Shown in pieces: positions 3,228-33,346 of a DNA stretch of 33,709 bases. The stretch lies in NCBI GenBank assembly GCA_019695295.1, contig JAIBAH010000042.1:1-33709 (forward strand). The letters run 5' to 3'. Origin of the DNA: Bacteroidia bacterium. Lineage in GTDB: Bacteria; Bacteroidota; Bacteroidia; J057. Below the pieces are notes generated by a model. It was given only the letters and a program-made list of their open reading frames with translations. It ran no database searches and had not been told where the DNA came from. The first letter of the stretch is position 1. Each line of letters begins with the position of its first letter. A program made the translations under genes and the position numbers.

Positions 3228-5168
3228 ATGAAAAAAATTTCCACTTTTATCTGTTTTCTTTCTGCGTTTTTGTCTTTCTCTTTTGCACAGAACCTTGTGC
3301 TAAATCCGGGATTCGAAAACATCAATGTCAACTGTTCCGGATTTGCCGGTGCCGGTTATACCAATATTGTGGACTGGTACAACCCCGATCCAACAGACAC
3401 CTGCTCCACTCCGGATTGGTTTTCCACCTGCCTGAATGGCTTTTTCCCTACGGCAGCACCCAACTCCTGGCTCGGAAGTCAAAGCCCCAGAACGGGAGAC
3501 GCTTACGGAGGATTTATTGCCTATGAAGCCACCTCCAACTCCTACCGTGAATATCTGGAAGGTACGCTTTCATCCCCTTTGGTTCAGGGGCAAACCTACT
3601 GTGTTTCTTTTTATATTTCTTTGGCGGATACGGTTCCTTTTGCCGTTGATAAAATCGGTGTCTATTTCTCCAATACCTTCGTTCAGTTTCCGGTAAGTCA
3701 TTGTATCAGTACGGTACCACTACCCGTTACACCTCAGCTACAGTGGGCAGGAGGAGTGGCAGATGACGTTGTAAACTGGGTAAGAATGGACTGGCAGTAC
3801 GTAGCTTCCGGAGGAGAACAGTATTTTGTGATTGGAAATTTTTTCAATAATGCCGCTACCACGATTCAAAATACGGGTGCTTCCGGGTTTACCACGCCTT
3901 TTGCATATTATTTTGTGGATGATGTAAGTGTAACGCCCGGTATTTGTTGTGACGCCGGTATTCTGAGTGCAGGCTCATTTTGTACGGGTGGCACCCCTGC
4001 CAGTTTGGTGGCCAATACTTCAGGAGGAACATGGTCAGGAACAGGAATCACAAACCCGTCCAGCGGCACCTTTGACCCGGTAGTAGCCGGGCAGGGAAGT
4101 CACATCATAACCTATACGCTTCCCTGCGGAGCCTTTGATACAATCTCCATACAAGTAAATAATTGCATGGAAGCCTGTATAGATACCTCCGGAAGTATCT
4201 CTGTAAACGGGGGCACAGGACCCTATACCTGGCAATCGCAAACAATTACTCAGGATTGCTCAGGCTGTCTGATAGGATGCACATTCCCTCCGGGCTGCGC
4301 TGTGAATGTAGTTGGCTGGCAAAATTTCGCAACCGGTAACTCCATCACTCCGCCGGCTGCATATCCTGTTCAGGTAGTGGATAATAATGGTCAAAACCTG
4401 GTCATAAACAGTATTTCGGGGCTACCTGCATGTCCTTCCGGTTGTCAGATGACCGCTAACGTAGTCTCAACTGATATACTGTGCTTTGGAGATAAAACCG
4501 GAACCGCTATCGCTACCGCAGGAAACGGAACCCCACCCTATGCCTACTCATGGAATACAGGCCAGATCAATGATTCTATCATCAACCTGAATGTAGGCAC
4601 TTACACCTGTTATATTCTTGACGCTTCCGGCTGCACTACCATTGTTTCCACTACCGTAAATCAGCCGCCTTCCATTGGGCTAAGCGGCTCTTCTACTCCC
4701 AACACAGGAGGAGGGAACGGCACCGCAACCGTCATTGCTTCAGGAGGAACCCCCCCGTTTACCTATACCTGGAATACCAATCCACCCCAATACACTTCCA
4801 CTGCCACAGGCCTGATTGCCGGCTCTTACACTTGTATCATCACCGATGCAAACGGATGTTTCAGACCCTTTACCATCAGTGTAACCGAAGCGCTCGACGT
4901 TGAAGAATCTGTAGCCGGAATTCAGCACATGAGTATCTCTCCTAATCCGTCCAACGGAACGTTTTCAGTAAAAATCACCCTGATAAATCCCTCTGAATTA
5001 ACCCTTTCTGTATATGATATAACGGGAAAACTCATTTCAGAGAACCAGAAACAGGTCGTGTATGATTATACGCATACCTTCAGGCTAAATGAAATCAGTA
5101 ATGGATTTTATACACTTAAAATAAAGACCCGGTCAGGCGAAATAATCCGGAAAATATTAATCCAATAG
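3228..5168 (+). CDS. T9SS-exported cell-surface protein with SprB-like repeats
   Basis: A 646-residue secreted protein. Residues 1-20 are a signal peptide (MKKISTFICFLSAFLSFSFA). Residues 22-235 form a Cys-containing beta-rich domain starting NLVLNPGFE, typical of Bacteroidota surface proteins of the carbohydrate-binding or jelly-roll kind. Residues about 407-555 contain two SprB-like units with the marks GxPPYxYxWNTG and GxYTCxIxDAxGC. Residues about 564-646 are a T9SS type A sorting domain (SPNPSNGTFSV, then YDITGKL, then GFYTLKIKTRSGE). The family pattern is export through the inner membrane by Sec, outer-membrane passage by T9SS, and removal of the tail at the surface. SprB itself is a gliding adhesin, but this protein is far smaller, so an adhesin role is only possible. 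An AACCTTTG stretch (3192-3199) 28 bases upstream is a near match to the -7 element. Confidence 0.9.
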   Translation: MKKISTFICFLSAFLSFSFAQNLVLNPGFENINVNCSGFAGAGYTNIVDWYNPDPTDTCSTPDWFSTCLNGFFPTAAPNSWLGSQSPRTGDAYGGFIAYEATSNSYREYLEGTLSSPLVQGQTYCVSFYISLADTVPFAVDKIGVYFSNTFVQFPVSHCISTVPLPVTPQLQWAGGVADDVVNWVRMDWQYVASGGEQYFVIGNFFNNAATTIQNTGASGFTTPFAYYFVDDVSVTPGICCDAGILSAGSFCTGGTPASLVANTSGGTWSGTGITNPSSGTFDPVVAGQGSHIITYTLPCGAFDTISIQVNNCMEACIDTSGSISVNGGTGPYTWQSQTITQDCSGCLIGCTFPPGCAVNVVGWQNFATGNSITPPAAYPVQVVDNNGQNLVINSISGLPACPSGCQMTANVVSTDILCFGDKTGTAIATAGNGTPPYAYSWNTGQINDSIINLNVGTYTCYILDASGCTTIVSTTVNQPPSIGLSGSSTPNTGGGNGTATVIASGGTPPFTYTWNTNPPQYTSTATGLIAGSYTCIITDANGCFRPFTISVTEALDVEESVAGIQHMSISPNPSNGTFSVKITLINPSELTLSVYDITGKLISENQKQVVYDYTHTFRLNEISNGFYTLKIKTRSGEIIRKILIQ

Positions 5169-6747: not shown

Positions 6748-9700
6748 TTATTCTATCATGAGTTTTAGCTCATATTTTTTTTCTCCGGTACGAAGGGAAA
6801 CCAGATAGATTCCTTTTGATACCGCCGGAATCCTGACCATAATACGGTTTTCGCCCGGTGCTGTTTCCAGCACTCCCGACTGAATCACTTTAGACTGAAT
6901 GTCTCTGATAGTATATTCTGCGTTTTCTGCTGCTTCTGAAGAGAAGAGAAAAAGCATTTCTCCCTGATTCGGATTAGGATAAATTCCAAAACCGGTTTTA
7001 TCCGTAATTTCTTCCAGTGAAACCGCATTCTGAACGGTAATCCATATTGAATCTGTATCCTGACATCCATTTACATCGGTCACTGTGACATAAAAAAGAT
7101 GCGCTCCCAATCCGGTTTGAGCAGTATTTACCGTCAGTGAAGCCTGTGTCCAGCCATTATTCCACAAATAACTACTAAATCCGCCTCCGGTATTAAGCGA
7201 AATGCTACTATTCAGGTTTACCGTTGTGTCATTTCCTATAAATACTACAGGCAAAGGATTCACTACAACCGGAATATCCGTAGTGAGTGTACCGCAACTA
7301 TTGGTAATATTACAGGCATATACGCCCGATTGTGTAACCCCTGCATTATTGATATTAAACGAAGGAGTCGTATTCCCTGTCGGAGTATTATTCACTAACC
7401 ACTGATAGCTAAAGGGTGCACTACCGGCTGCATTCGCTGTCATCTGAACAGACTCTCCCTGACACAGTACCGAATCGGTAATCGTAATCATACCACTGGA
7501 AGGTTGCGCAAACACAGTAATGCTTTGAGATAAAGTATCAGCCCCGTTACCATTGGTTGCAATCAGGGAGAGCACAAAATTCCCTGAACTACTAAACCCA
7601 AATTCAGGATTTTGGGAAGTGGTACTGGTTCCGTTCAGGAAAGAAACGCCGGAAGCGGGAGAAATATACCAGGAATAAGTCTGAGCATATGAGGAAAGAT
7701 TTTGAACAGTTAGCGTATCATTCAGGCAAATTGCATTCAGGGACGAAAATGCAGGATTAGGTAAAGTGCTGACCGATATATCATCCAGCGCAAGGTCTCC
7801 TGTATATCCATTTCCGGTGGTCCCTCTGAAACGAATTACAATCTGCTCTTCTTCCCAGTTGCTTAAATTCACTACTTTGTTCAGCCATTGATTTCCCTGA
7901 TCTCCGGATATTTCCGTCAAAGGAGAAGCCTGCCATCCGTCGTTTCCAAGCACTTCCACATTCAGTGTCCCGATTGTCCCGCCGTAGGCATGATACCAGA
8001 AATCCAGCTCCGGCTGATTGCTGCCCCTCATATCAAAGCATACGGATTGCAAATCGGCTGTTTTGAAACGACAGCCGGAACCGTCCGTACTGGAAGTTTC
8101 CAGATAAACATATTTTCCGCTTCCGGTTGTATGATCAAAATCAGGGCCGGTACTTCCTGTTCCGGTTGCCCCGCTCAGCGTGCGCCAGTCAATGCTATCC
8201 CCAAACATTTCAGGGGTATTCATCAGATTATACCATCCGGAACTGAGGTTACAGTCCACTTCTGAGCATCCCCACGAGGTAGCACAGTTTGTAAATCCAT
8301 CGAAATTCTGAGTGTAATTCATCAGCACAGACTGAGAAGGATAAATAATCACCATAACCTGCATCGTATCATTATTCAGAAAAGCATCACCCGGAGCAGC
8401 TACCCATACTTTTAAATTATAGGTACCGGCAACCGAAAACAAAATACTATCACTAAAAGTAATCCATTCTTCATCCGCAGAGGATAAAATTCCGGAAAAA
8501 GTCGTTTGGTGAATTATGCCATTATCTATCTGATAATACAGGGGAAAACCCGTTAAATCATTGATTCCCACATTTTGGATTTTGGCTTTCAGGGGGCGGT
8601 TTACGGAAGCGAAACAATCCGGGAAATAACCGTTTTCATAAGGAGACACCTGAATAAGTCCGGCATTTACCGCAACACAGCCTGTATCTCCGGGCACCCA
8701 TTTCCAGGCAATAGTCCGGCGGCTGAGGGCATTATCCGGGCCATAAGCCTGAACCCCGAACCATTCCCCTTCCACAGTATTGGCATTGCGGATTTTAGCA
8801 TGCGAACTTACCGAAAAAGCAATACTATCCATATACTTTTGCCCCAGATGGGTAATCCTGTAGCCGGTAGCATTTGGAACAGGGTCCCAGTCAAGCATCA
8901 GAGAATCCCCGCAAGACCAGATTCTGCCTACATTCTCAGGTACTTCCATTATACTGAAAGCCTCAGGAGAAATACTTTGTTTTGTGCCGCTTATCACCCT
9001 TACTTTAGCCCTGCCAGTCTGCGCATAGGGTACCGTCCATTTATAGTTGTTGCTTGCCGGCTGTAACCCCGATACAATCGGTTGCCATGAACTTCCGTTA
9101 TCAGTGGAATACTCCAGCGAAATAGAATTATTGTTCCCGTAATTATCCCACCGGACAATTTCCTCCTCCCCTGCCACAAAATGCTCTCTTCCAATAGGGT
9201 AAGTGAGCGTAATTTCATCATAAAGGAATTCATACACAAGATAAAATTTCTGTGGTCCCTGCGGTACGAGTGCCCCGTTTACGGTAAGAATATAATTTCC
9301 GGCTGCCGGATTGGCGAGCGTAATTTGCTCTGTATTATTCAGGGAGTCAACCCCTCTGTAAGCGGGATTATCCAGGCTATCAGGATGAGGGGCAATATTA
9401 AGTACCCAGGGATTGAATGTAGTCCCTCCCGGGGTCATCATGGAAAGATTCAGGTTATTGACGAGTGCCTTTGCTGCATTTGTAACCGCCTCATAGTCAT
9501 GCCAGTAAAGCAAAGTCCTTACTTCTTTTACATTGGCAGGAACCGAAAGGGTAAACTGACGGGCTCCGTTATTGCTCACGCTGTCCTCCCAGTATTGACT
9601 GGCCATGATGGAATTGTAGGCCCGGCGCACATTGATTCTTCCAAACCCCGTTTTAAAATCAGGGCCGGGGTTATACATATCATCCGCAGTATTTAGCATA

Positions 9701-11052
9701 AATCCCTTAATCAGCGCAGAAGGAGGAGTATTTCCATTATGATTATTTTTCCATACCTGATATAACTGAGCCATCATGCCTGCGGCTTTTGGAGAAGAAT
9801 AAGAAGTACCTTCAATGCCCTCAATACACAAATCCGGTTTTATCCTTCCGTCAAAAGCCGGCCCCACACTCCCGAAACTGAGGGAATCATAAGGAGTGGT
9901 ATTACAAATTGCCATGAGGTTTTTGGCCTGCTTTGCCCCTCCGGTAATATTTGCCCAGCCACTGATTCCATTATAGGTTCCATAATTGCAGGTATCGCCG
10001 CCTACATTTCCGGAAGAATAGAAATGCATCATCTGAGGCTGTAGCCTCATTTGCTGGTCATGATCCCTTGCTGAAGCCCAGTACCCCCCACTCACTCCCC
10101 AGCCGTATGAATGACTTGCCATCCTTACATCCGCAGTATCATATACCGTCCATGTATCATCATTTAAGGACATAATGCTGGCACCGAAAGCATTGGAACG
10201 ATACTTGGGATTATAATTTCCGGCTCCTCCCGCATTCATACTGCACCCGGTTTTATGGCCGGAAACCGAATTGCCGGTAGTTTGTTCATCTAACCTGCCC
10301 TGAAAATCTATGCTCAGGGTATCTACGATTCCGCCTTCTTCTATCGCAAGCACAACGCCGGTTCCATCATAATTCATACCGTTTATACCGGAGGAAAGAT
10401 AGTTGGCGCGGCCTACAGTATTCCGGTAGGTGAGTTCATTGGTCTGAGGTGGAGCAGGAAGGCTGATAAATGCGATGTATGGTAGGGCTGCAATTTCTTT
10501 CCATTTATCCGGTAAAATCTCCAGTACTATCTGATTTTTTCGCCCGGACTTACTGAGAATTCTGGCACCTTTTTCGGATAAAGCATTTTCAGCCCATACG
10601 AAGTCCAGCCCCGGGAAAATATCTGCTTCTATACGGAGATATCCCTCTTCTGAATAGGCATAGGGCGGAATCTGATTTTGAGACAGTGCAGCGGAAAGTT
10701 TGTATTCCGGCAGAATTTCTGAAATCATCATTCCCTCAAACTGAGTTAGCGTCTCTTCTGAAACCTTATCAGACATCGAAATATACCACGAATAATCGGG
10801 AAGATAGAATAAAAATTCAATACCGGATTTTTTCATTTCATTACGGGTAAGCTCATCCGGAATAGATACTGACTGCATCAGTACATACCTTTTTCCTTCC
10901 ACGAGGGGTGTTCGCTCCAGAACCTCCTTAAAAGGCTTTACCTGAGGAGTATAGGTAGCGGAAGCAAGATATAGCTTTTGCCCCTGCTGTGAAAAACCCT
11001 GAAAACAAATCATTGCAATCATCCAAAAAAGAGTCCACTTTTGTCCAAGCAT
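6748..11052 (-). CDS. T9SS-exported subtilase-family (S8) multidomain protein
   Basis: A 1434-residue protein if started at the ATG at 11052. That start gives a clean signal peptide (MLGQKWTLFWMIAMICFQGFS). The frame opens further upstream at 11151, but that codon lies inside a promoter-like TACTTTTG, so the longer form is unlikely. After a prodomain (about 25-200), the S8 domain (about 205-485) shows His266 in GHKTG, oxyanion Asn349 in SSGN, and Ser417 in GTSYSSPKAAG. The usual catalytic Asp before GG appears to be Glu239 (IEEGG). Beta-sandwich modules follow: a P-domain-like region (about 490-620), a MAM-like region (about 914-1100) ending in LALDDISVS, and PKD or Ig-like repeats (about 1100-1345). 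The last 75 residues are a T9SS sorting tail (IYPNPNQGE, then GIYLVSLRTG). It is probably a surface or secreted protease, with activity uncertain because of the Glu. Confidence 0.9.
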   Translation of the reverse strand: MLGQKWTLFWMIAMICFQGFSQQGQKLYLASATYTPQVKPFKEVLERTPLVEGKRYVLMQSVSIPDELTRNEMKKSGIEFLFYLPDYSWYISMSDKVSEETLTQFEGMMISEILPEYKLSAALSQNQIPPYAYSEEGYLRIEADIFPGLDFVWAENALSEKGARILSKSGRKNQIVLEILPDKWKEIAALPYIAFISLPAPPQTNELTYRNTVGRANYLSSGINGMNYDGTGVVLAIEEGGIVDTLSIDFQGRLDEQTTGNSVSGHKTGCSMNAGGAGNYNPKYRSNAFGASIMSLNDDTWTVYDTADVRMASHSYGWGVSGGYWASARDHDQQMRLQPQMMHFYSSGNVGGDTCNYGTYNGISGWANITGGAKQAKNLMAICNTTPYDSLSFGSVGPAFDGRIKPDLCIEGIEGTSYSSPKAAGMMAQLYQVWKNNHNGNTPPSALIKGFMLNTADDMYNPGPDFKTGFGRINVRRAYNSIMASQYWEDSVSNNGARQFTLSVPANVKEVRTLLYWHDYEAVTNAAKALVNNLNLSMMTPGGTTFNPWVLNIAPHPDSLDNPAYRGVDSLNNTEQITLANPAAGNYILTVNGALVPQGPQKFYLVYEFLYDEITLTYPIGREHFVAGEEEIVRWDNYGNNNSISLEYSTDNGSSWQPIVSGLQPASNNYKWTVPYAQTGRAKVRVISGTKQSISPEAFSIMEVPENVGRIWSCGDSLMLDWDPVPNATGYRITHLGQKYMDSIAFSVSSHAKIRNANTVEGEWFGVQAYGPDNALSRRTIAWKWVPGDTGCVAVNAGLIQVSPYENGYFPDCFASVNRPLKAKIQNVGINDLTGFPLYYQIDNGIIHQTTFSGILSSADEEWITFSDSILFSVAGTYNLKVWVAAPGDAFLNNDTMQVMVIIYPSQSVLMNYTQNFDGFTNCATSWGCSEVDCNLSSGWYNLMNTPEMFGDSIDWRTLSGATGTGSTGPDFDHTTGSGKYVYLETSSTDGSGCRFKTADLQSVCFDMRGSNQPELDFWYHAYGGTIGTLNVEVLGNDGWQASPLTEISGDQGNQWLNKVVNLSNWEEEQIVIRFRGTTGNGYTGDLALDDISVSTLPNPAFSSLNAICLNDTLTVQNLSSYAQTYSWYISPASGVSFLNGTSTTSQNPEFGFSSSGNFVLSLIATNGNGADTLSQSITVFAQPSSGMITITDSVLCQGESVQMTANAAGSAPFSYQWLVNNTPTGNTTPSFNINNAGVTQSGVYACNITNSCGTLTTDIPVVVNPLPVVFIGNDTTVNLNSSISLNTGGGFSSYLWNNGWTQASLTVNTAQTGLGAHLFYVTVTDVNGCQDTDSIWITVQNAVSLEEITDKTGFGIYPNPNQGEMLFLFSSEAAENAEYTIRDIQSKVIQSGVLETAPGENRIMVRIPAVSKGIYLVSLRTGEKKYELKLMIE

Positions 11053-11148
11053 AAAAGATAAATTGTTAAAATGCACCTTGTAGAGAATCCATATATCCGA
11101 AAATTTACTAAAAAACAAACCGTTTTCGGGTTCCGGTTCTATCTGCGA

Positions 11149-11156
11149 CAAAAGTA
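11149..11156 (-). promoter_or_regulatory. Probable -7 element for the subtilase gene
   Basis: TACTTTTG on the minus strand matches TAnnTTTG and lies 96 bases before the ATG at 11052. It overlaps the upstream in-frame ATG at 11151, arguing against that longer start. Confidence 0.5.
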
Positions 11157-16690: not shown

Positions 16691-18787
16691 ATGCTTACAA
16701 ATACTCCGGTTATAGAGGAAAAAGATACTGAAATCCGCGTCGAAACTTTGCTGAAAGCCTATAAACTGATGAAAACAGCAGAAGCCCTGACGGTTTTATA
16801 CGAGGAAAACAAAGAAGTTACAGCCAAATATGTCCACGCAACCTCCAGAGGCCACGAAGCCATTCAGCTTGCGATGTCTATGCAACTCCTTCCTCAGGAT
16901 TTTGTTTCCCCTTATTACAGGGATGATTCTATTTTGCTGGGAATCGGGATGAGCCCTTATGAGTTAATGCTACAACTGCTTGCCCGTAAAGACGACCCTT
17001 TTTCCGGAGGAAGAACCTATTACGGACACCCCAGCCTGAGAAGACCGGATATGCCAAAGATTTTACATCAGTCCTCCTCTACCGGAATGCAGGCAATCCC
17101 TACTACGGGTGTGGCTCAGGGGTTTCAGTACCTTGAAGAACAGGGACTTATGAAATACGAAAACGGAGAACTGCCGCCGGTTGTCGTTTGCTCTATCGGA
17201 GATGGTGCCGTAACGGAGGGGGAAGTTTCGGAAGCCTTTCAGATGGCAGCCCTTCATCAGTTACCCATTATTTATATGATTCAGGATAACGGATGGGGAA
17301 TTTCTGCAACCGGAAAGGAAATGTATGCACAAAATGCACTGGAATTCATAAAGGGATTTAAAGGAATTGAGGGAGTAAGCGTAAATGGTTCGGACTTTAT
17401 CGCCTGCTATGCTACGATGAAAGAAGTGATTGATACCGTAAGAAAAACCCGCAGGCCTTTCCTGGTGTATGCACCGGTACCTTTACTGAACCATCACACC
17501 TCGGGAGTGAGAAAAGAATGGTATCGTTCGGACTTTAATGAACATGCTCCCAAAGACCCGATTCCTTTTTTCCATGATGAACTGATTGCTATGGGTATTA
17601 AGGAAGAGGTATTGAACGGGCTTGCTGCTGAGGCTACAAAATTAGTAAGAGAGGACTACGAAAAAGCCCTCCTGAATCCGGAACCGGAAGCAGCGGATTT
17701 ATTCAGGCACATCTATGCGCCCACTCCGGTAACAGAAGAAACCGGAAACCGGACGCCTGCCGATGGCAAGGAAGTAGTGATGGTGGACGCTGCATTACAC
17801 GCAGTAGATAAAATTCTGAGAGAACACCCCGAAGCATTATTATACGGACAGGACGTAGGCGGAGAACTGGGAGGTGTATTCCGGGAAGCCGCACTGCTGG
17901 CCAAAAGATATGGAGACGGAAGGGTATTCAATACCCCGATTCAGGAAGCTTATATCATAGGAAGTACCGTAGGGATGTCTGCCACAGGTTGTAAACCCAT
18001 TGTGGAAATACAGTTTGCGGATTATATATGGCCGGGCGTAAATCAACTTTACGCTGAGCTCAGCAGGGCGTATTTCCTGTCAAACGGCAAGTGGAATGTA
18101 CAATCACTCATACGTGTACCCATCGGTGCGTACGGTAGCGGAGGTCCTTTTCACTCTTCCAGTGTAGAGTCTGCAATCCTGACCATCAGAGGCGTAAAAG
18201 TAGTGTATCCTTCCAATGCAGCCGATATGAAAGGGCTGCTGCGTGCTGCTTTTTATGACCCCAACCCGGTAATTATGTTTGAACATAAGGGATTATATTG
18301 GGGTAAAGTGCCCGGCAGTAAAGAAGCCCGCTGTATCGAACCCGATGATGATTACATTATACCACTCGGAAAAGCCAGAATCTACCTTGAAGCAAGCGCA
18401 GAAGCGGTAGAGAACGGCGAAAGTTGCCTCGTAATAACTTATGGAATGGGGGTTCACTGGACTAAAAATGCAGCGAAGTCATTCCCCGGCAAGATTGAAA
18501 TTCTGGATTTACGTACTTTGGAGCCTTTGGACTGGGACGCAATTCAGGAAGGAGTAAAAAAACACGGAAAAGTACTCGTGCTTACGGAAGAGTGCCTTCA
18601 AAACTCTTTTGCTGAATCCCTTGCAGGACGAATCTCCTTTCATTTTTTCAGCTATCTCGATGCTCCTGTACATACAATGGGTGCCGAAAGCCTGCCTGCA
18701 ATTCCCCTGAACTCAGGGCTTGAGGGCTTTATGCTCCCGAATGCAGATAAAGTCAAATCAAAACTTGAAGAATTATTAAACTGGTAA
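16691..18787 (+). CDS. Fused alpha/beta 2-oxoacid dehydrogenase E1 component
   Basis: A 698-residue protein joining the alpha and beta chains of a thiamine-diphosphate E1 of the branched-chain 2-oxoacid type. Residues about 1-345 are the alpha part: GDG (170-172) and N200 in DNGWG form the ThDP-binding motif, and the HHTSG loop (near 275) precedes the phospho-loop region. Residues about 356-698 are the beta part (LLYGQDVGGELGGVFREA, then VFNTPIQE, then EIQFADYIWPGVNQL). E1 decarboxylates a 2-oxo acid and passes the acyl group to the lipoyl of E2. This fused arrangement is common in Bacteroidota and is usually annotated as 2-oxoisovalerate dehydrogenase; the exact substrate is not shown by the sequence. 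No E2 or E3 gene lies in the window. The next gene starts 2 bases after the stop, so both are in one operon. Confidence 0.93.
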   Translation: MLTNTPVIEEKDTEIRVETLLKAYKLMKTAEALTVLYEENKEVTAKYVHATSRGHEAIQLAMSMQLLPQDFVSPYYRDDSILLGIGMSPYELMLQLLARKDDPFSGGRTYYGHPSLRRPDMPKILHQSSSTGMQAIPTTGVAQGFQYLEEQGLMKYENGELPPVVVCSIGDGAVTEGEVSEAFQMAALHQLPIIYMIQDNGWGISATGKEMYAQNALEFIKGFKGIEGVSVNGSDFIACYATMKEVIDTVRKTRRPFLVYAPVPLLNHHTSGVRKEWYRSDFNEHAPKDPIPFFHDELIAMGIKEEVLNGLAAEATKLVREDYEKALLNPEPEAADLFRHIYAPTPVTEETGNRTPADGKEVVMVDAALHAVDKILREHPEALLYGQDVGGELGGVFREAALLAKRYGDGRVFNTPIQEAYIIGSTVGMSATGCKPIVEIQFADYIWPGVNQLYAELSRAYFLSNGKWNVQSLIRVPIGAYGSGGPFHSSSVESAILTIRGVKVVYPSNAADMKGLLRAAFYDPNPVIMFEHKGLYWGKVPGSKEARCIEPDDDYIIPLGKARIYLEASAEAVENGESCLVITYGMGVHWTKNAAKSFPGKIEILDLRTLEPLDWDAIQEGVKKHGKVLVLTEECLQNSFAESLAGRISFHFFSYLDAPVHTMGAESLPAIPLNSGLEGFMLPNADKVKSKLEELLNW

Positions 18788-19915: not shown

Positions 19916-20377
19916 TTACTGAGTAAGTTTATTGGACTCAGGCGTAATCATTCTTAGTAATCTTGCAAAGATTCCGGGTGAGTCATCATTTTGTTTTGCG
20001 ATAAGATCTGAATATTTTATTGCTTGCTGATCATATTCATCTACAAGTTTTTTCCCTTTCTTGGTAAGCGTTATCAAAACAGAGCGACGATCTTCTTTGG
20101 AATTTACCCGTTTAATCAGGCCAATCAGTTCGATTTTATCTACCAAACTGGTCAGTGTACTGAATTTTATCCCGAAAGTTTCGCCTATGTGTTTCATTTT
20201 TTGAGCTCCATGTTTATCCACATACAATATTATTTCCATCTCAGTTTCTGAGATATCATACTGATTGCGAATCTGATTCTGATGCTGACGGAAGGAGTCT
20301 CTTAAAGACATCATTTGTAAACGGAGCAAATCATTTGCTTCGTCATTTTGATTGGTTTGCACAAATTCGTTTGCCAT
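19916..20377 (-). CDS. MarR-family transcriptional regulator
   Basis: A 153-residue protein if started at the ATG at 20377. The frame extends to 20425, but a TATCTTTG promoter element overlaps that upstream ATG, so the shorter start is preferred. The fold is MarR winged helix-turn-helix: dimer helix (residues about 15-40), DNA-binding region MKHIGETFGIKFSTLTSLVDKIELIGLIKR (61-90, two segments) with the wing NSKEDRRSVLITLTKKG (92-108) and the conserved Asp-Arg-Arg. MarR proteins act as dimers that bind palindromic operators and are released by small ligands or redox signals. The regulated gene is probably itself and perhaps the divergent lipoprotein. No cysteine is present, so redox control by thiols is unlikely. 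Confidence 0.9.
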   Translation of the reverse strand: MANEFVQTNQNDEANDLLRLQMMSLRDSFRQHQNQIRNQYDISETEMEIILYVDKHGAQKMKHIGETFGIKFSTLTSLVDKIELIGLIKRVNSKEDRRSVLITLTKKGKKLVDEYDQQAIKYSDLIAKQNDDSPGIFARLLRMITPESNKLTQ

Positions 20378-20422
20378 AATTAAAAAATTAGAGGTTGATA
20401 ATATAAAATTGTTACTTGGAGG

Positions 20423-20430
20423 CAAAGATA
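20423..20430 (-). promoter_or_regulatory. Probable -7 element for the MarR gene
   Basis: TATCTTTG on the minus strand, followed by GCC, lies 45 bases before the ATG at 20377 and overlaps the earlier ATG at 20425, which decides the start. The 20378-20868 gap holds two divergent promoters and otherwise no gene that I can support. Confidence 0.6.
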
Positions 20431-20788
20431 AGCAAAAAAATAATACCCTATATAAATATGTAGTAATTTTATTTGTTTTTTTAAAAAAAATATAATAATG
20501 AATGAAACCAAGCCTTCAAATGTACGATTATAAGGATTATAAATAACGGTTTAGTAAATTAAACCCATCTGAATATTTTTTAAAACAGCAGGGATAGTTA
20601 TATAACCGGCAATTTCTCTCATTCAGAACCAATGCGGTAATCTATAAAAGTCTGATATACAAGATTAAGGAATCTGGCCTTCGGCAGTTATCCTTATGAC
20701 ACGAAAAAAATATCCAACCTATACAGTATATTTACACCTGTTTTTCAATCTTTTACTCACTGTTTACGTATAAACAAGTAAAGATATT

Positions 20789-20819
20789 TTGATTATTCAA
20801 AAATATTAATCTATATTTG
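20789..20819 (+). promoter_or_regulatory. Promoter (-33 TTG, -7 TATATTTG) for the lipoprotein gene
   Basis: TTG at 20789-20791 and TATATTTG at 20812-20819 are separated by 20 bases, the standard Bacteroidota spacing, and the -7 element is 49 bases before the ATG at 20869. This is the most complete promoter in the window. Confidence 0.6.
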
Positions 20820-20851
20820 ACTGTGTTTATGAAAAAAAACCTTATTCCAAA

Positions 20852-20865
20852 TTAATAATTATTAA
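20852..20865. promoter_or_regulatory. 14-bp perfect palindrome, possible operator
   Basis: TTAATAATTATTAA is a perfect palindrome just upstream of the ATG at 20869 and downstream of the promoter. It could be a MarR operator or simply reflect the AT-rich context. Confidence 0.3.
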
Positions 20866-20868
20866 CAC

Positions 20869-21426
20869 ATGAAAAAAGTATTTATTCTGGGTGTAATCAT
20901 TGCTTTTGTGAGTGCCTGCGGGTCATTACCTGAACCCAAAAATTCTGTTTCGTCCTTATTCAGTGCTTTCAAAAGACAATCACGCGAAGTTCCTTTAGGT
21001 CAGAACTCTCAGATGAGGGCCGATTTCAGAAAATACCTTGCGACTAAGTATCAGGATACCACCGTTTTGTACTATGATTTTTCAGACATGGCCATAGGCA
21101 ATCTCAACTCCGATGACCTTCAGGATTTCAGCATGCAATATTCAGCTCCTCCTGCCGGAGATAAAGACTGTATTCAGTGCTGGGAAATTTATCATACCTT
21201 TTTCTTAAAAGATGGGAGTCGTTATCGTTTTATTGAGGAAATGCAGGTAGGAGCCGGCTCAGGAGGCAATGGAAGCTATTACAGGATAGACTCTCTTGCA
21301 AACGGGAATATTCACCGCACTTTTTATACGATTGAGGAAGGGGATGATTTACAGTCTGACAACAAAGACGTACTTCAGTTTCTGAATGGCAAAATTATCC
21401 GTCCGCTGGAAAAAATAAGTATGTAG
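20869..21426 (+). CDS. Predicted lipoprotein of unknown function
   Basis: A 185-residue protein with a lipoprotein signal peptide: a basic start MKKV, a hydrophobic core, and lipobox V-S-A-C with Cys17. The acidic stretch after Cys that signals surface export in Bacteroidota is not seen (CGSLPEPKN), so an inner leaflet outer-membrane anchor is the simplest reading. The mature part has a conserved-looking DFSDMAIGNLNSDDLQDFSM and two close cysteines (CIQCWEIYHTF). I do not recognise the family. It is divergent from the MarR gene and has a well-formed promoter. Confidence 0.8.
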   Translation: MKKVFILGVIIAFVSACGSLPEPKNSVSSLFSAFKRQSREVPLGQNSQMRADFRKYLATKYQDTTVLYYDFSDMAIGNLNSDDLQDFSMQYSAPPAGDKDCIQCWEIYHTFFLKDGSRYRFIEEMQVGAGSGGNGSYYRIDSLANGNIHRTFYTIEEGDDLQSDNKDVLQFLNGKIIRPLEKISM

Positions 21427-22044: not shown

Positions 22045-22662
22045 ATGAGATATCTTTTTTCGCTGCTATTAGTCTATCTGGGGTTGTCATTATGCATGTA
22101 TTCCCCTGCTTCAGGGCAATCGCTCGGAACGATGGAGGAGTTTGACACCCCTGTCGGAACAAGATTATATTATGCTGTCATCGCTAAAGGAAAAGCCTAC
22201 GGTTTTTTTGCAAAGGTTCTTACCTTTAAATGGAATAAAGAGGTGGGAGTTCAATGGAAAACCAATGAATGGGGCGGGAATAAAGAAGGAGAAATTACGT
22301 TAACCAAACAGGCCACTCAGTATTCCGGAGAAATCATAACGACTTTTGAACCCAATATACGATTGATTTATTCGGAGCAAACTGCTTTTTGGGTAAGCAA
22401 AAAAATATATAACGCCCTCACTCAAAGTTGGGGAGCAGAGATAAAAACAGGAGAAATCAAAGATTTTTTCAGTTGTGTAGAGCGTGACCGTTTTGCACTC
22501 TCCCTTGACAACCAGCCGGTATATGTACCCTGCCTGAAAGCCAAAACCCAAAATGGGGGAAGTATATGGATACTGGACAACCGGGACGCTCCGCTGATTC
22601 TGAAGCTGGATATGGGCTTTGAGATGGAACTGATGACCGTGCTTACCCGGGAAGAGGAATAA
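22045..22662 (+). CDS. Secreted protein of unknown function
   Basis: A 205-residue protein with a signal peptide (MRYLFSLLLVYLGLSLC, cleavage probably near ASGQ-SLG). The mature part is beta-rich and Trp/Tyr-rich (VGVQWKTNEWGGNKEG, then IWILDNRDAPLILKLDMGFEMEL), ending in an acidic TREEE. It has two cysteines (C142 and C158 region). It recalls other short Bacteroidota periplasmic proteins but I cannot name a family. A bidirectional terminator follows directly after its stop. Confidence 0.75.
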   Translation: MRYLFSLLLVYLGLSLCMYSPASGQSLGTMEEFDTPVGTRLYYAVIAKGKAYGFFAKVLTFKWNKEVGVQWKTNEWGGNKEGEITLTKQATQYSGEIITTFEPNIRLIYSEQTAFWVSKKIYNALTQSWGAEIKTGEIKDFFSCVERDRFALSLDNQPVYVPCLKAKTQNGGSIWILDNRDAPLILKLDMGFEMELMTVLTREEE

Positions 22663-27316: not shown

Positions 27317-30300
27317 TTATTGAGCCACTTTCTGAAGAAGTTTTACTGCACGAATACTTTGTGCCGGATATTTATCAGAAGTGATATATGTTCTGTCTCC
27401 TGCATACTGGAATGCTCCCTGTAATACTTTTTTGCTGTTGTTTTCGCTGGAAATCATCATATAAAGAGCGATATTCACAGGTTTTGCAGGGTCAATTTCA
27501 GGAATGATTACATTATTGTAAACCATTTTACCTCCGATAATCTGATACTTATATCCCTGAGCAGAGAAGTAGTCGTTGATACGGTTCATTACTTCATCTT
27601 TAGAGATAAATGCACTTACCGGGAAGCACGGACTTCCGTCCACCATTACATCAGACTGATAGTCCCAGAATCCTTTGAGATCTTGCTCGAGGAGTCTTAA
27701 CTCCACTTCTCTGGCAGCAGATGCTTTGATTTTAGCGTCTTCCAGTGTCAGTTGCTCTTCTTTCAGTTCGATATATTCTTCTCTCTGAGTAATTCTGCGC
27801 TCTCTTGCATCCACTTCAGCGATTCTGCGGGAAAGTGCGGCCTCATTCAGGCTGGAGGGATTGGTACTGGAAGCAACCGGCTGATTTTTGCCTTTTTGCT
27901 CTGCAATCGCCAACTGATTTTTGAGGTTTTGATTCTCAGATTTCAAAGAAGAAATCTGTGCGTCATAGTCTTCTGTATTTACAGTAACTACCGGAATACT
28001 ATTCACTTTCTGCTCAAGTTCTGCAATTCTGGCGAGGTCTTTATCGTGCTGATCCAATGCATTGGAAACATATTCTGTATTTTTCTCAATCTGTTCTTTG
28101 AGGGTTAAATTCTCTGTCATGAGTTTGGCAATTTCAGGATCTCCTCCGGCAGAAACATTGATGTTTTTATAGGCTTCCACTTCACCGTTCAGACGGGATA
28201 CATTTGCCTGTAAAGCGATTACCTCTTCATTCAGGTCAGAGTTTTGCTTACGCAGCGTCTCGAGTTCTTCGGAAGATGGATTACTTCCGGAGGACGGGTT
28301 TTCGCTTATTGCACTGAGTCTTTGCTTCAGGGCAGTATTTTCGTCCAGCAACTGTGAGTTCTGAGCTACAAGGATATCATGGTCACCGTCTCCCGTTCCC
28401 ATATTGGTTTTCAGCTTCTCGGTAAGGTTCAATACCTGATTTTCCAGTACGGTTTTTTCAGACATTAACTGCTCGTAGTTGGCTTTCAGTCTGTCGTATT
28501 CAGCGGTATTGCCTACGCCGGCAGCAGCACTTTGATTTGCATACAGCGCATTGAGCGCATTGGAAAGAGCTGTACGCAAAGATTCATTTTCATCAAACAA
28601 CTCCTGGTTTTGCTTACGGAGTGCTTCTGCCTCTTCTGCTTTTGTATATTCACTGGGTTCAGATGAAACCGGAATACTGAAATTTTTGACTTTATCATTC
28701 AAACGCTGAATTTCATTATCCTGCGCTTCGATTCTTCCTCTGAGTGAAGCGATTAACTCCTCTTTTCCGGAAGAAGAAGGTTGGTTTCGGAGTTGTTCCA
28801 CTTCTGACTTAAGGGTTTCATTTGCCTCCTTCAGTTCCAGTTTTTCCTGCATGAGGATTGCAATTTCGCCGTCACCGGAGTTTTCGAGCTGAGTTTTCAG
28901 GTTGCTGTTTTCATCCTGCAATTCATTGATTCTCTGCTTGAACAAATCATTCTCTTCTTTATACATCACTAGTAAATCTTCACCTTTGGAAGCCATCAGG
29001 TTTCTGATTTCTTCCTCAGCATCTGCCAGTTTTTTCTTCAGCACAACCACCTGTTTATTTTGTTCTTCATTCGGTTTAGGGCTTCCGGCTCCTTCTTCTT
29101 TCAGGGTTTGAAGTTCTTTTTTGAGAGAAGTATTTTCCACCATCAGGTTTTCTACCGCAGGCTGAATATCCTTTATTTGTTCTTCGAGCTGCTCATTGCG
29201 GTTAGTCAATACTCTTACATCCTGCTGAAGTGCGACAAGCTGTTCATTTTCAGGCATAGGCTCCTGAGATTTCAGTTTATTGTTTTCTTCAGTAAGTGCT
29301 GCAATCTGATTTTTGAGGATGAGCATTTGCTCGTCTTTATCGTCTCCGCTCACTACAGGCTGAGAACCGGGATTCCCTGTCCCTGCGATATCATCATGAA
29401 GTTTTTTCCAGCGGTCACGCTCTTCTACAAGGATATTATTCTGAGAACGTGCTCCCAGCAATTCATCTTCCTTTTCAGCAATCTTGCTGTTCAGTGCCAT
29501 AATCATTTCGTCTTTTTCAGAAACACTTCCGGAAGTAAGACTTGTCTGTACCTTAAGCTGATTGCGCAGGTTATCGTTTTCGGAAGTGAGTTCGCTCACC
29601 TGCTGATTGAGTTCAGCCACAACCTGACCATCATTTCCTTCTGATTTTGCAGCAATTACTCCGTTAAGACGGGCTACCTCTGCTGTTAGTTCTTCATTTT
29701 TGGTAATCAGAGCCGTCGCGTCCGGATTTTCTACCGGAAGGCTTGCTCCTTCACGAAGCTTGATATTTTCCTCAGAAAGTTGTTTATTCAAAGTTTCAAG
29801 TGCTGCAATCTGAGTCTGATACTTCTCTACATCCGGTGAAGTGCCGGGAGCAGGGGTAGTACCCGTACCAGCAAGAGCCTCTTCATATTGTTTTTTATAC
29901 AAATCCCTTTCTTCAATCAACGCGTCCACCTGAGCCTGAAGCTGTGGGCTACCGCCTTTTTCAAGTGCTACATTCAATTCATTTTCCGTAACGAGCAATC
30001 TCTTTTCGACTTCATCCACTTTATTCTGAAGTGCGTTTCTCTGATTGGTAAGGGTAGTGATTTCTTCGTCTTTAATCGCCACTACTTCCTGAACATCAGA
30101 ATTAACGGTTACTTCGGTGAGTTTTTGCTGAAGATTCGCAATCGTAATATCTTTTTGTACCAGTAAATCCTGAGTTTCTACAATCTGAGTCTGCATTACG
30201 ACACTTTTTGCCAGCTGCTGACGCATAAGATTGTTTTCGGCTTCCAGTTGCTGAACCTGTAGTCCGAGTTCTTCGCAGGAAATAGTGCCACTCTTGAGGG

Positions 30301-33300
30301 CAAGTTCCTGTTCGAGTCTTGATTTTTCAGCAGACAAAGCGATATTTTCGTCTTTTAATCTTGCCATTTCTTCTCTTACCGGTCCGAAAGACTCTTTATT
30401 TCCTTCGAGTACCTCAAGCATTCTGGCGTTCTCGTTTTTCAACTGAAGATTTTCTCTTTGTAAAGCAGTAAGTTGCTCGTCAGGGTTTTCTGTGCTGAAT
30501 GCGTCAATCACTCTTTGAAGAGAATCCTGCTGCACTTTCAGAACAGAAATCTGAGCAAGATAAGCATCCGCCTTAACTGAATCTACTCCGGAAGGCATTG
30601 GAGTATTCATGGCGATAGCATTTAAAGAATCTACTGCAAATTTAAGGGTTGTATTTTCGGAGATGATTTTTTCTCTTTCTACAGAGAGGTTTTCTTTTTC
30701 TCTTTTTACATTATCCAGTTCCGTTCTTGTATCATTCAGTGCCTGTTCAGTCACAGAAGCGTCAGCAACTTCACTGATTTTTTTCTCAAGATTGGTATTG
30801 GTATTCTGAAGTTCCGTAATCTGAGCCAGCAAAGTTTGTTTTTCAGTGCCAAGCGAAGCATTTTCGGTTTCGAGTGCGGCCACTTTTTCTCTCATTGGCG
30901 CAAAAGCCGTTTTATTTTCTTCCAGCACCTCAAGCATTGCTGCATTTTCATTTTTCAGCTGAAGGTTTTCTCTTTGTAATGCAAGCAGTTGCTCGCTGCC
31001 TTCGGGCTGCTCGGTCTGAAAAGCGTCAATCACTCTTTGAAGAGAGTCTTTTTCATGATTCACAACAGCCACCCGGCTTACCCATGAGGAACTATCGGTA
31101 CCGGAAGCAGAGCTGATTTCCATTCTGCGCATCAATTCCTGATTTTTAGTCATCAGTTCTTCTCTGTCTTTTTTCAGTGCTTCAATCTGACTGTAAAGAG
31201 AAGAAGCCAGTACAGAATCCTGATGCAGGGTGTCGTTCTGATTGTTGCTCATGCCATTGAGTGATTTCAGTTCCTGATTTTCTTTTTCCAGCACCGCAAT
31301 TCTGCTCATTGCAATATCCAGTTCACCTTCTTTGAGGGTTTTATTTTCAGCTTCCAGTTCTTTATTACGGGTATTTGCAACACTGAGGTCGTTTTCAAAT
31401 TGTTTTTTCTGCTGACGTTCCGCAGTAAGTTCCATATTCAGCTCTTCAATTTCAGCCATAAACGATGCAGTCCTTACACTGTCTGCTTCGTTAGAGGAAG
31501 GAGCAGAAGCCTGCAGTTGTTTTATCTGTAATTCCAGGTCGTCATTCTGACGCTTGGCGTCGGCAAGCATGGATTCATAATTTTCAATTACAGACTGAAG
31601 GCGGGTGTACCGTACATTCATAGTATCTACATATACCGTAGCCTGATCGAGTTTGGATTTGATATCCTCCAGGTTCTGACTTTTCAGTTCATCGTTTTCT
31701 TTTTTGAGCAGTTCTGTCTGAGCCTGAAATTCAGTATTTTCAGTTTGCAGTGTATTCAGCTGAGTACGAAGCGCAGCAACATCAGAAGCACTTGCCTTGA
31801 GATCATCGTAATCCTGGCGCAAAACGAGGTACTCTTTTTTCATTGCTTCAAAATCACCAAGCAGACGCTGATTTTCCTGAATCAGTGAATCTACTTTAGC
31901 CTGAAGGTCAGGGCCACCGGAAGATCCGCTTTTGCGTAAATCCTCGATTTCCTTGCGCATCATTGCATTCTGAGACTGAGTAGCAGCGTACTGATCGTCA
32001 AGACTCTTTTTTTCTTCCTCCAATTTATTGTATTTATCCTGGAGTTCTGTGAAACCGAGCGTTTCATTCCCTTCGGTTGAACCGGATTTCAAATCTGCCA
32101 CTTCTTGTTTTAAAGCGATAATTTCCTTTTGATATTCAGCGATTTTTTCGCTTTCTCCCAATGAAGTTACGGGCGCAGCCGGAGATAATTCCGCAATTTG
32201 TTTTTCAAGTTCCCTTACTTTATTTTCCTTATTATAAATGATGCGAATCAAAGAGTCTGTTTTTACATTATCAACTCCGCCACCGTTATTTCCCTCGGCA
32301 ATTGCCTGCTCCAGTTCAAAATTCAGTTTTTTGTACTGACTTCTTAACTGAAGGTTTTCATTATAGAGACTTGAAATTCTTTGGTCGTACAAACGGGCAA
32401 TACTATCACACTCGAGGCTTTGTGCCAAAACAGCAAGCGGAATCATTCCTTCAGGATAACCTGTAGTGACAGAGTAGTCTTTGGCGGCCATGAAATCAGG
32501 GCTCTGACGAAGAATAATAGCCATTACATTCGGGTCGGCAGATGCAAGAATCGTAGTATCCACAGGAAGTGCATCCTGAGTAGGAGGGATATAATATCTT
32601 GGTGGATTAGCCGGAATCGGTTCAGGTGTATTCAGGTTGAAGTTTGCGCCAACTGCAAAAGAGAACAACATATCACTTCCTTTTTTCCGGTTAGGAATCA
32701 GGTTGGCTCCATAAAGGTCCATATAGTCATTCATCGGGATACGAAGCGTCGTACCTAAATTAAGGTTCACTTTCGGGCTTAGGTTAAGTTCAGTGCCCAG
32801 GCCTAAAGGAAGAGAAGCCGTAATCGTACTGAATTTTTCTCCTCTCAGCGGATTGAATCCCTTAAAGGGAATTGTATCGTTTTTGAACGGGAAAAACAAC
32901 ATCCCGCCAAGCCCGAGTGAAGCATAAGGCTTTAGCAACTGATCAGAATCCCTGAAGGGAGATGCCTTTACAGCACCGTCCAGATAAACAAAATCCGTTC
33001 TTACGTAACGGGGTGGCTCATAATATGAGTTGGGGTCTGTAGTAGGCCCAAAATAAAAAGGCGTAAGGTCGGGGTTCTGAGCTACTATTCTGCCATATCC
33101 AAACCTGCCCAAAGGAGAAAAATATCCTTTCGTTTTTTTGGAAATACTTGCCTCCATTCCCGGAAGTACATTAAACGTTTTTGCTGCTCCGGATTGATTG
33201 TAGTTAATGTCACCATAATACCCGGTGCCGGTGAGGTTGACTCCAAGCGTTAAATTGTCTTTGGATGTACGGGCTACTCCCTGTCCACAAACGAATGTGA

Positions 33301-33346
33301 AGAAGAGATAAAAAAACCCGAATGTAAAAGTTACCTTATTTTTCAT
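27317..33346 (-). CDS. Giant outer-membrane barrel plus coiled-coil protein, 2009 residues
   Basis: Residues 1-21 are a signal peptide (MKNKVTFTFGFFYLFFTFVC). Residues about 28-235 look like a small outer-membrane beta-barrel: alternating hydrophobic and polar strands with Gly/aromatic girdles (LGVNLTGTGYYGDINY, ASLPLGLGTELNLSPKVNLNLG, MLFSFAVGANFNL). A Pro-rich linker (about 240-260) and a helical part follow. Residues about 312-1885 are almost pure coiled coil with heptads of Leu/Ile and many Glu, Lys, Gln, Asn, Ser, broken by short Gly/Pro/Ser islands (for example GTTPAPGTSP). Residues about 1890-2009 form a separate mixed alpha/beta domain (FWDYQSDVMVDGSPCFPV, then GKMVYNNVIIPEIDP). A 174-residue offset internal duplication is visible. 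I know no named family with this layout. The barrel would sit in the outer membrane with the coil facing the periplasm or outside. Single-gene unit. Confidence 0.85.
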   Translation of the reverse strand: MKNKVTFTFGFFYLFFTFVCGQGVARTSKDNLTLGVNLTGTGYYGDINYNQSGAAKTFNVLPGMEASISKKTKGYFSPLGRFGYGRIVAQNPDLTPFYFGPTTDPNSYYEPPRYVRTDFVYLDGAVKASPFRDSDQLLKPYASLGLGGMLFFPFKNDTIPFKGFNPLRGEKFSTITASLPLGLGTELNLSPKVNLNLGTTLRIPMNDYMDLYGANLIPNRKKGSDMLFSFAVGANFNLNTPEPIPANPPRYYIPPTQDALPVDTTILASADPNVMAIILRQSPDFMAAKDYSVTTGYPEGMIPLAVLAQSLECDSIARLYDQRISSLYNENLQLRSQYKKLNFELEQAIAEGNNGGGVDNVKTDSLIRIIYNKENKVRELEKQIAELSPAAPVTSLGESEKIAEYQKEIIALKQEVADLKSGSTEGNETLGFTELQDKYNKLEEEKKSLDDQYAATQSQNAMMRKEIEDLRKSGSSGGPDLQAKVDSLIQENQRLLGDFEAMKKEYLVLRQDYDDLKASASDVAALRTQLNTLQTENTEFQAQTELLKKENDELKSQNLEDIKSKLDQATVYVDTMNVRYTRLQSVIENYESMLADAKRQNDDLELQIKQLQASAPSSNEADSVRTASFMAEIEELNMELTAERQQKKQFENDLSVANTRNKELEAENKTLKEGELDIAMSRIAVLEKENQELKSLNGMSNNQNDTLHQDSVLASSLYSQIEALKKDREELMTKNQELMRRMEISSASGTDSSSWVSRVAVVNHEKDSLQRVIDAFQTEQPEGSEQLLALQRENLQLKNENAAMLEVLEENKTAFAPMREKVAALETENASLGTEKQTLLAQITELQNTNTNLEKKISEVADASVTEQALNDTRTELDNVKREKENLSVEREKIISENTTLKFAVDSLNAIAMNTPMPSGVDSVKADAYLAQISVLKVQQDSLQRVIDAFSTENPDEQLTALQRENLQLKNENARMLEVLEGNKESFGPVREEMARLKDENIALSAEKSRLEQELALKSGTISCEELGLQVQQLEAENNLMRQQLAKSVVMQTQIVETQDLLVQKDITIANLQQKLTEVTVNSDVQEVVAIKDEEITTLTNQRNALQNKVDEVEKRLLVTENELNVALEKGGSPQLQAQVDALIEERDLYKKQYEEALAGTGTTPAPGTSPDVEKYQTQIAALETLNKQLSEENIKLREGASLPVENPDATALITKNEELTAEVARLNGVIAAKSEGNDGQVVAELNQQVSELTSENDNLRNQLKVQTSLTSGSVSEKDEMIMALNSKIAEKEDELLGARSQNNILVEERDRWKKLHDDIAGTGNPGSQPVVSGDDKDEQMLILKNQIAALTEENNKLKSQEPMPENEQLVALQQDVRVLTNRNEQLEEQIKDIQPAVENLMVENTSLKKELQTLKEEGAGSPKPNEEQNKQVVVLKKKLADAEEEIRNLMASKGEDLLVMYKEENDLFKQRINELQDENSNLKTQLENSGDGEIAILMQEKLELKEANETLKSEVEQLRNQPSSSGKEELIASLRGRIEAQDNEIQRLNDKVKNFSIPVSSEPSEYTKAEEAEALRKQNQELFDENESLRTALSNALNALYANQSAAAGVGNTAEYDRLKANYEQLMSEKTVLENQVLNLTEKLKTNMGTGDGDHDILVAQNSQLLDENTALKQRLSAISENPSSGSNPSSEELETLRKQNSDLNEEVIALQANVSRLNGEVEAYKNINVSAGGDPEIAKLMTENLTLKEQIEKNTEYVSNALDQHDKDLARIAELEQKVNSIPVVTVNTEDYDAQISSLKSENQNLKNQLAIAEQKGKNQPVASSTNPSSLNEAALSRRIAEVDARERRITQREEYIELKEEQLTLEDAKIKASAAREVELRLLEQDLKGFWDYQSDVMVDGSPCFPVSAFISKDEVMNRINDYFSAQGYKYQIIGGKMVYNNVIIPEIDPAKPVNIALYMMISSENNSKKVLQGAFQYAGDRTYITSDKYPAQSIRAVKLLQKVAQ
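30501..31045 (-). repeat. Internal duplication in the coiled coil, 522-base offset
   Basis: The segment beginning DSLQRVIDAF and continuing LALQRENLQLKNENA (or LTALQRENLQLKNENA) occurs twice, 174 residues apart, with one 23-base stretch identical at 30501-30523 and 31023-31045. Heptad composition alone would not give this identity. Confidence 0.85.

Follow-up and report, generated by a model that had tools for sequence, protein, structure and literature searches.

The window analysed here, the whole 33,709-nucleotide stretch of contig JAIBAH010000042.1 (assembly GCA_019695295.1), is part of a 4.9-Mb Bacteroidota draft genome (G000, contig C82). It carries the gene of a giant protein of 2,009 residues (P0001), in which a small outer-membrane barrel is joined by a very long segmented coil to a compact C-terminal domain. 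The features of the gene are as follows, with positions counted along the window.

27317..33346, minus strand: whole gene, 2,009 codons plus the stop codon (from the sequence and the orthologs).
33284..33346, minus strand: signal peptide, residues 1-21, with predicted cleavage before Q22 and no lipobox (from the sequence; a G/Q or S/Q junction also occurs in relatives).
32633..33259, minus strand: outer-membrane barrel of the PorG superfamily, residues ~30-238 (from NCBIfam NF052316, a family survey and a tree).
32411..32632, minus strand: Pro-rich, presumably periplasmic linker, residues 239-312 (from the sequence).
32408..32410, minus strand: Cys313, in the motif C-D-S-I directly before the coil (kept in 4/4 tailed members).
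27677..32407, minus strand: segmented heptad coil, residues 314-1890, about 27 helical segments separated by Pro/Gly/Ser linkers (from periodicity, segmentation and structure prediction with AlphaFold2, AF2).
30773..31012, minus strand: first copy of an internal duplication, residues 779-858 (ungapped self-match).
30257..30496, minus strand: second copy of the duplication, residues 951-1030 (ungapped self-match).
27677..27847, minus strand: last helical segment, residues 1834-1890 (89.5% identical to its counterpart in KLAP112, against 69.4% for the preceding coil).
27626..27628, minus strand: Cys1907, in D-G-[SAT]-P-C at the junction of coil and C-terminal domain (kept in 3/3 genus members).
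27320..27676, minus strand: helix-grip-like C-terminal domain, residues 1891-2009 (from an AF2 model with a BamC-like fold and a sequence family).

The first-pass annotation of this DNA, made from the letters alone, had the right coordinates for the gene (27317-33346); the strand, which it did not give, is minus. Its order of signal peptide, barrel, coil and compact domain holds, as does the great length. The signal peptide that it claimed is present and ends FVCG/Q22, which fits the 'Q-rule' of Bacteroidetes signal peptides (PMC10653852); inspection of the sequence gave no lipobox at C20 (FVC) in the window protein, cleavage being predicted at G/Q.

A full-length ortholog of 2,182 residues is encoded in another genome of the same genus (G001, L035:1493-8041) and aligns with the window protein end to end (BLASTP, 27% identity, 637 bits). 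A further genome of the genus (G002, KLAP112) keeps the last ~327 codons of a gene that is cut by the contig end, with 78-82% amino-acid identity. The ratio of nonsynonymous to synonymous substitution rates (dN/dS) between the window and KLAP112 was estimated at ~0.09 for the coil part and ~0.03 for the end domain, values that are rough with dS near saturation (for the last helical segment dS could not be estimated). Given the full-length ortholog, the low dN/dS and the end-to-end alignment, these sequence comparisons indicate that the gene is real and under purifying selection, and that it is no artefact or chance frame.

The assignment of the barrel relies on sequence comparison, in which residues ~30-238 are similar to other Bacteroidota outer-membrane barrels. 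Pfam gave no barrel match in the window protein at E 0.01, and OmpW was a weak match for the barrel (E 0.43). The NCBIfam profile of PorG (NF052316) matches at E 1e-3 when the whole protein is searched and at E 1.9e-5 with the barrel alone; it matches 10/10 barrels of our alignment (best 3.2e-12), which shows relatedness only. At 24.6 bits, the window barrel lies far below the curated equivalog cut-off of 130 bits, and the same genome encodes better PorG homologues (contigs C28 and C132, 112-116 bits) that end in tail cysteines (NCPTP and VKCPKF). Because the cut-off is missed and separate PorG homologues are present, the protein is, as far as sequence goes, a member of the PorG superfamily and not PorG itself. 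It shares with PorG the barrel superfamily, a conserved cysteine in a C-tail that is probably periplasmic here as well, and the occurrence in Bacteroidota; it differs in that the PorG proteins of this family have ~275-300 residues, no coil, and another cysteine position and motif. The family is widespread: a profile of ten barrels found members in 275 of 295 Bacteroidia genomes, at most ten candidates being scored per genome, and the next longest frame among the matches listed has 589 residues.

The coil has a clear heptad signal. Over residues ~307-1890 the hydrophobic period of 3.5 has a power of 2.83, against 0.96 for shuffled sequences at 3.5 and no more than 1.45 for shuffled sequences at any period; the coil of the G001 ortholog gives 2.90 against 0.85. 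Matches to Pfam and NCBIfam in this region were to generic coiled-coil models alone (SMC, ASRP, Filament), and the coil is strongly acidic (net -108 over residues 330-1890). Segmentation by helix propensity, with a threshold of our choosing and hence approximate segment numbers, yields 27 helical segments covering 1,361 of 1,585 residues of P0001 (mean 50, longest 158 residues) and 34 segments in the G001 ortholog (longest 106 residues). The helices of an AF2 model of residues 1-480 (313-354, 360-387, 396-421 and 428-473) coincide with the first four of these segments. Breaks occur every ~20-160 residues, at linkers such as NNGGGVDN, GTTPAPGTSPDVE and SENPSSGSNPSSE. The heptad coil of about 1,570 residues that had been described is therefore real (~1,575 residues), with the qualification that it includes linkers of Pro, Gly, Ser and Asn that total ~220 residues. 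One continuous 200-nm rod is ruled out by these linkers. The longest unbroken segment measures ~24 nm at 0.15 nm per residue; each segment fits a periplasm, so the length of the coil forces nothing outside the cell.

Two stretches of ~80 residues, at an offset of 172 residues, are copies of each other (best ungapped self-match 168, null maximum 68), which suggests from the sequence that the coil grew by internal duplication. Between the full-length orthologs the coil is 30% identical, against 47% for the barrel and 47% for the end domain, while total length is kept within ~10%. Divergence in sequence with conservation of length is the signature of a spacer, and a published study describes sequence-divergent, length-conserved coils as molecular spacers (PMC5082667).

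The side of the membrane on which the coil lies is suggested by relatives of the barrel. The same genome has three tandem paralogs of it with LysM-like C-termini (G000:C7; L037:2631-6609), the LysM being recognised mostly by eye (Pfam scored one weakly, E 0.075). LysM is a peptidoglycan-binding domain, and its position after the barrel in these paralogs argues that the C-terminal side of this barrel type is periplasmic. Published PorG likewise has a periplasmic C-tail (PMC12635249). From the PorG topology and the LysM paralogs we infer that the coil and the end domain of the window protein lie in the periplasm. The coil was earlier said to have to fold back, run along the membrane or lie outside the cell: folding back or running along the membrane is likely, whereas a place outside is unlikely given the periplasmic C-terminal side and the short segments.

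The length of the coil varies widely among close relatives. In a tree of 45 barrel sequences, the window protein, its G001 ortholog and proteins of genomes G004, G012 and G007 group together with 100/100 support, and the LysM-bearing barrels fall outside this clade. Lengths in this clade are about 320 residues in G007 (barrel, no tail), 545 in G012, 587 in G004, 2,009 in the window and 2,182 in G001. G012 and G004 belong to another genus of the same family, and there a coil of ~130-160 residues comes after the barrel, and then a domain that is probably homologous to the window end domain (hhalign against the end-domain family, E 2e-4, prob 46%; not significant with a hidden Markov model). As these proteins carry a barrel, a short coil and an aligning domain, this architecture probably goes back to an ancestor of part of the family. 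The coil then probably lengthened more than 10-fold in the window's genus relative to the sister genus, the alternative being that it was shortened in the other genus. A coil that is more than 10-fold longer than in the sister genus would thus be a spacer whose length outweighs its sequence. Unusual as it is, the protein can be explained as a barrel-coil-domain protein, of a family of Bacteroidota, that was lengthened. Members of a single orthologous clade span everything from no periplasmic coil to one of ~1,750 residues, which would be a natural experiment on spacer length.

The AF2 model of residues 1891-2009, from an alignment of two sequences, folds as strand, helix, four strands and helix with a predicted local distance difference test score (pLDDT) of ~85 over the core, which bears out the compact C-terminal domain of the first-pass annotation. 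The best Foldseek matches of this model are to BamC (E 6e-3, prob 0.98). VIA also gave BamC (Z 7.8 over 96 residues at 3.3 Å, 4-10% identity), together with the phosphoglucomutase C-terminal domain (Z 8.2), KA1 domains (Z 7.4-7.6) and DUF4468 (Z 6.2). A helix-grip-like arrangement is thus predicted, like those of the N-terminal helix-grip domain of BamC and of DUF4468; this is no proof of kinship to BamC, as Z values below 8 can reflect a common arrangement. At the sequence level the end domain has no match to BamC, which also differs in its lipoprotein signal, absent from the window protein.

Separate searches with the two ends of the protein, which had been recommended, led from the barrel to the PorG superfamily; the end domain had no match in Pfam, NCBIfam or the PDB and led only to an unnamed family of small secreted proteins, mostly of ~200-265 residues, in which a signal peptide is followed by the domain and a short coil. 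An end-domain profile from the genus only finds the stand-alone protein L046 at 4e-4. Conversely, a profile of stand-alone proteins with no genus member gives the G001 domain 26.4 bits, whereas 10,000 shuffles reach 12.6 bits at most; P0001's own end domain reaches just 11.6 bits with this profile, so the homology rests on the G001 ortholog. The family is present in 34 of 295 Bacteroidia genomes, and its order of signal peptide, domain and coil differs from the barrel, coil and domain of the window protein. The view that no named family has the latter order stands for the architecture as a whole; its parts, however, can be placed, the barrel in the PorG superfamily and the end domain in this widespread family. 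What emerges is a family of secreted domains in Bacteroidia that has no name, is predicted to fold like BamC and matches nothing in Pfam. Its members include L151:5938-6607, L046:1237-1914 and L158:5111-6459, sometimes in tandem pairs (G155), and a 356-residue protein (L088, G007:C1:1117769) has an extra C-terminal stretch that by eye resembles the C-terminal domain of ribosomal protein L7/L12. Inspection of the neighbourhoods of the stand-alone proteins by eye gave no obvious shared partner.

The domain order, the homologies, the segmentation, the conservation of a cysteine and the variation in length support a reading to which we give about an even chance: that the window protein is a flexible periplasmic tether anchored in the outer membrane. 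The N-terminal barrel would fix the protein in the outer membrane, and the C-terminal side would hang in the periplasm as ~27 short coiled-coil segments connected by flexible linkers. Such a jointed coil would give a long reach (more than 200 nm of contour length) without stiffness, and as a spacer its length would matter more than its sequence. The BamC-like helix-grip end domain would dock to a partner, which may sit in the cell wall or the inner membrane or be part of another periplasmic complex, and the lone cysteine just after the barrel may be a covalent joint, either between two coil chains or to another envelope protein.

Several points weigh against this reading. The long form is found in only three genomes of one genus, all of them draft assemblies. 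Dimerisation of the coil, its extended state in the cell and a partner for the end domain are all hypothetical. The neighbour genes of the two full-length orthologs differ, so there is no operon evidence. Structure prediction in pieces, another check that had been suggested, gave the coil helices and the compact end domain but no barrel: in the single-sequence AF2 model of residues 1-480, pLDDT is ~30 over the barrel region, where a PorG protein would have 8 strands, so the small N-terminal barrel of the first-pass annotation is supported by homology and not by the model.

Tethers with comparable parts are known. OmpM (Veillonella), SlpA (Deinococcus) and Omp-alpha (Thermotoga) also combine an outer-membrane barrel or anchor with a periplasmic coiled coil and a terminal binding domain in a spacer-like manner (PMC10628300 and PMC9388160 for the coiled-coil tethers of OmpM/SlpA type). 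The order in OmpM and SlpA is SLH, coil and barrel (PMC10628300), the reverse of that in the window protein, which has an N-terminal barrel and a segmented coil of ~1,575 residues. Since the order is reversed and neither Pfam nor NCBIfam matches an SLH domain in it, the window protein is not a member of this group, and by analogy it may work like one. The OmpA and LysM anchors between outer membrane and peptidoglycan, including the genome's own barrel-LysM paralogs, resemble it in having a small N-terminal barrel followed by a periplasmic domain; it differs from them in its giant coil and in its end domain, and Pfam and NCBIfam matched no OmpA_C or LysM in the protein or in its end domain.

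The cysteines bear on how such a tether would be joined. The mature window protein has three. Cys313 (LECDSI) has equivalents in the other tailed members (IDCDSL, PDCDSL and NNCDSL), and in two of the four tailed members the C-D-S cysteine is the sole cysteine of the mature protein. Together with Cys1907 it flanks the coil, and Leu/Asn-rich zipper patterns often form parallel dimers. The two conserved cysteines and the heptad pattern would therefore suit a covalent coiled-coil dimer, in which two parallel chains are cross-linked at both ends of the coil into a clamped spacer with no link to the moving track discussed below. We consider this unlikely while ranking it first among the alternatives; short-form relatives lack the second cysteine.

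In a 2025 study, PorG and SprF proved to be attached to GldK, a component of a moving track, by disulfide bonds of cysteines in their periplasmic tails (PMC12635249). The window's genome encodes a GldK above its cut-off, and in this and related genomes the protein has a KGC(L/F) motif, near the published PorK Arg-Gly-Cys-Phe, so that with the tail cysteine a disulfide of Cys313 to the track is possible. Yet Cys313 sits ~75 residues past the barrel, against ~10 in PorG, and its motif is CDSI/L and not VKCP; a disulfide within a coil dimer is at least as likely. A track client in the full sense would, like PorG and SprF, have its barrel bonded through Cys313 to GldK/PorK and moved, pulling the coil and end domain along as a mechanical cable or brake for gliding or type IX secretion; this seems rather improbable. 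The PorG-superfamily barrel speaks for it, as do the published mechanism, the single tail cysteine in 4/4 tailed members with few others beside it, and the PorG homologues with tail cysteines that the genome encodes in addition to its GldK. In its favour, too, most of the true PorG proteins examined carry such a cysteine close to the C-terminus, whereas the tails of the examined LysM-bearing paralogs have no equivalent (in one of them a cysteine lies within the LysM). Against this, besides the position and motif of Cys313, the genome has separate PorG homologues, and GldK-type matches occur in 13/13 family genomes while only 5 have the tailed protein, whole or as a fragment, so that it is not a core part. 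We give slightly less credence still to the strong form of this idea. In it the barrel, covalently bonded to GldK/PorK via Cys313, would be pulled through the outer membrane and trail a jointed coil of more than 200 nm with a docking domain at its end; the protein would be a mechanical cable of the machine for gliding or secretion, and the length of the cable would evolve fast. SprF, an outer-membrane carrier of gliding adhesins, shares with the window protein only the idea of a tail cysteine. A conserved cysteine by a PorG-type barrel bears on whether the newly found disulfide-to-track principle reaches beyond PorG and SprF.

An envelope or cell-shape fibre, in which the coil would line the inside of the outer membrane and polymerise side by side into a filament, is improbable. 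Great length and a strongly acidic coil would suit it; Pro/Gly linkers are frequent, and the poor conservation of the coil and the different segment counts of the two orthologs argue against a fixed lateral register. A surface filament outside the cell, which has length alone in its favour, was dropped as very improbable, because the barrel topology and the LysM paralogs place the tail in the periplasm and neither Pfam nor NCBIfam shows a type IX sorting domain on the window protein; the length, for which the first-pass annotation considered such a filament or a cell-length fibre possible, is no paradox in a coil of ~27 short segments with flexible linkers on the periplasmic side.

Other genes of the window are of separate interest. 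At 708-3107 (plus strand) lies a flotillin-like (FloA) protein whose 799 residues exceed twice the size of the FloA models; it has 'DLSGRDV/I' repeats in tandem, and its FloA part is followed by an apparent coil several hundred residues long. The products of two genes, 3228-5168 (plus strand) and 6748-11151 (minus strand), are substrates of type IX secretion: one combines SprB repeats with a type A sorting domain, the other is a subtilase with MAM, Ig and sorting domains. Two open reading frames with no Pfam match (20869-21426 and 22045-22662, both on the plus strand) lie beside a low-GC stretch (31% GC at 20001-21000). The alpha and beta parts of a pyruvate/branched-chain dehydrogenase E1 are fused in one frame of 698 residues at 16691-18787 (plus strand); in the sister genome G001 the giant coil gene has an E1-type gene (L035:3-956) immediately upstream, which is not so in the window.

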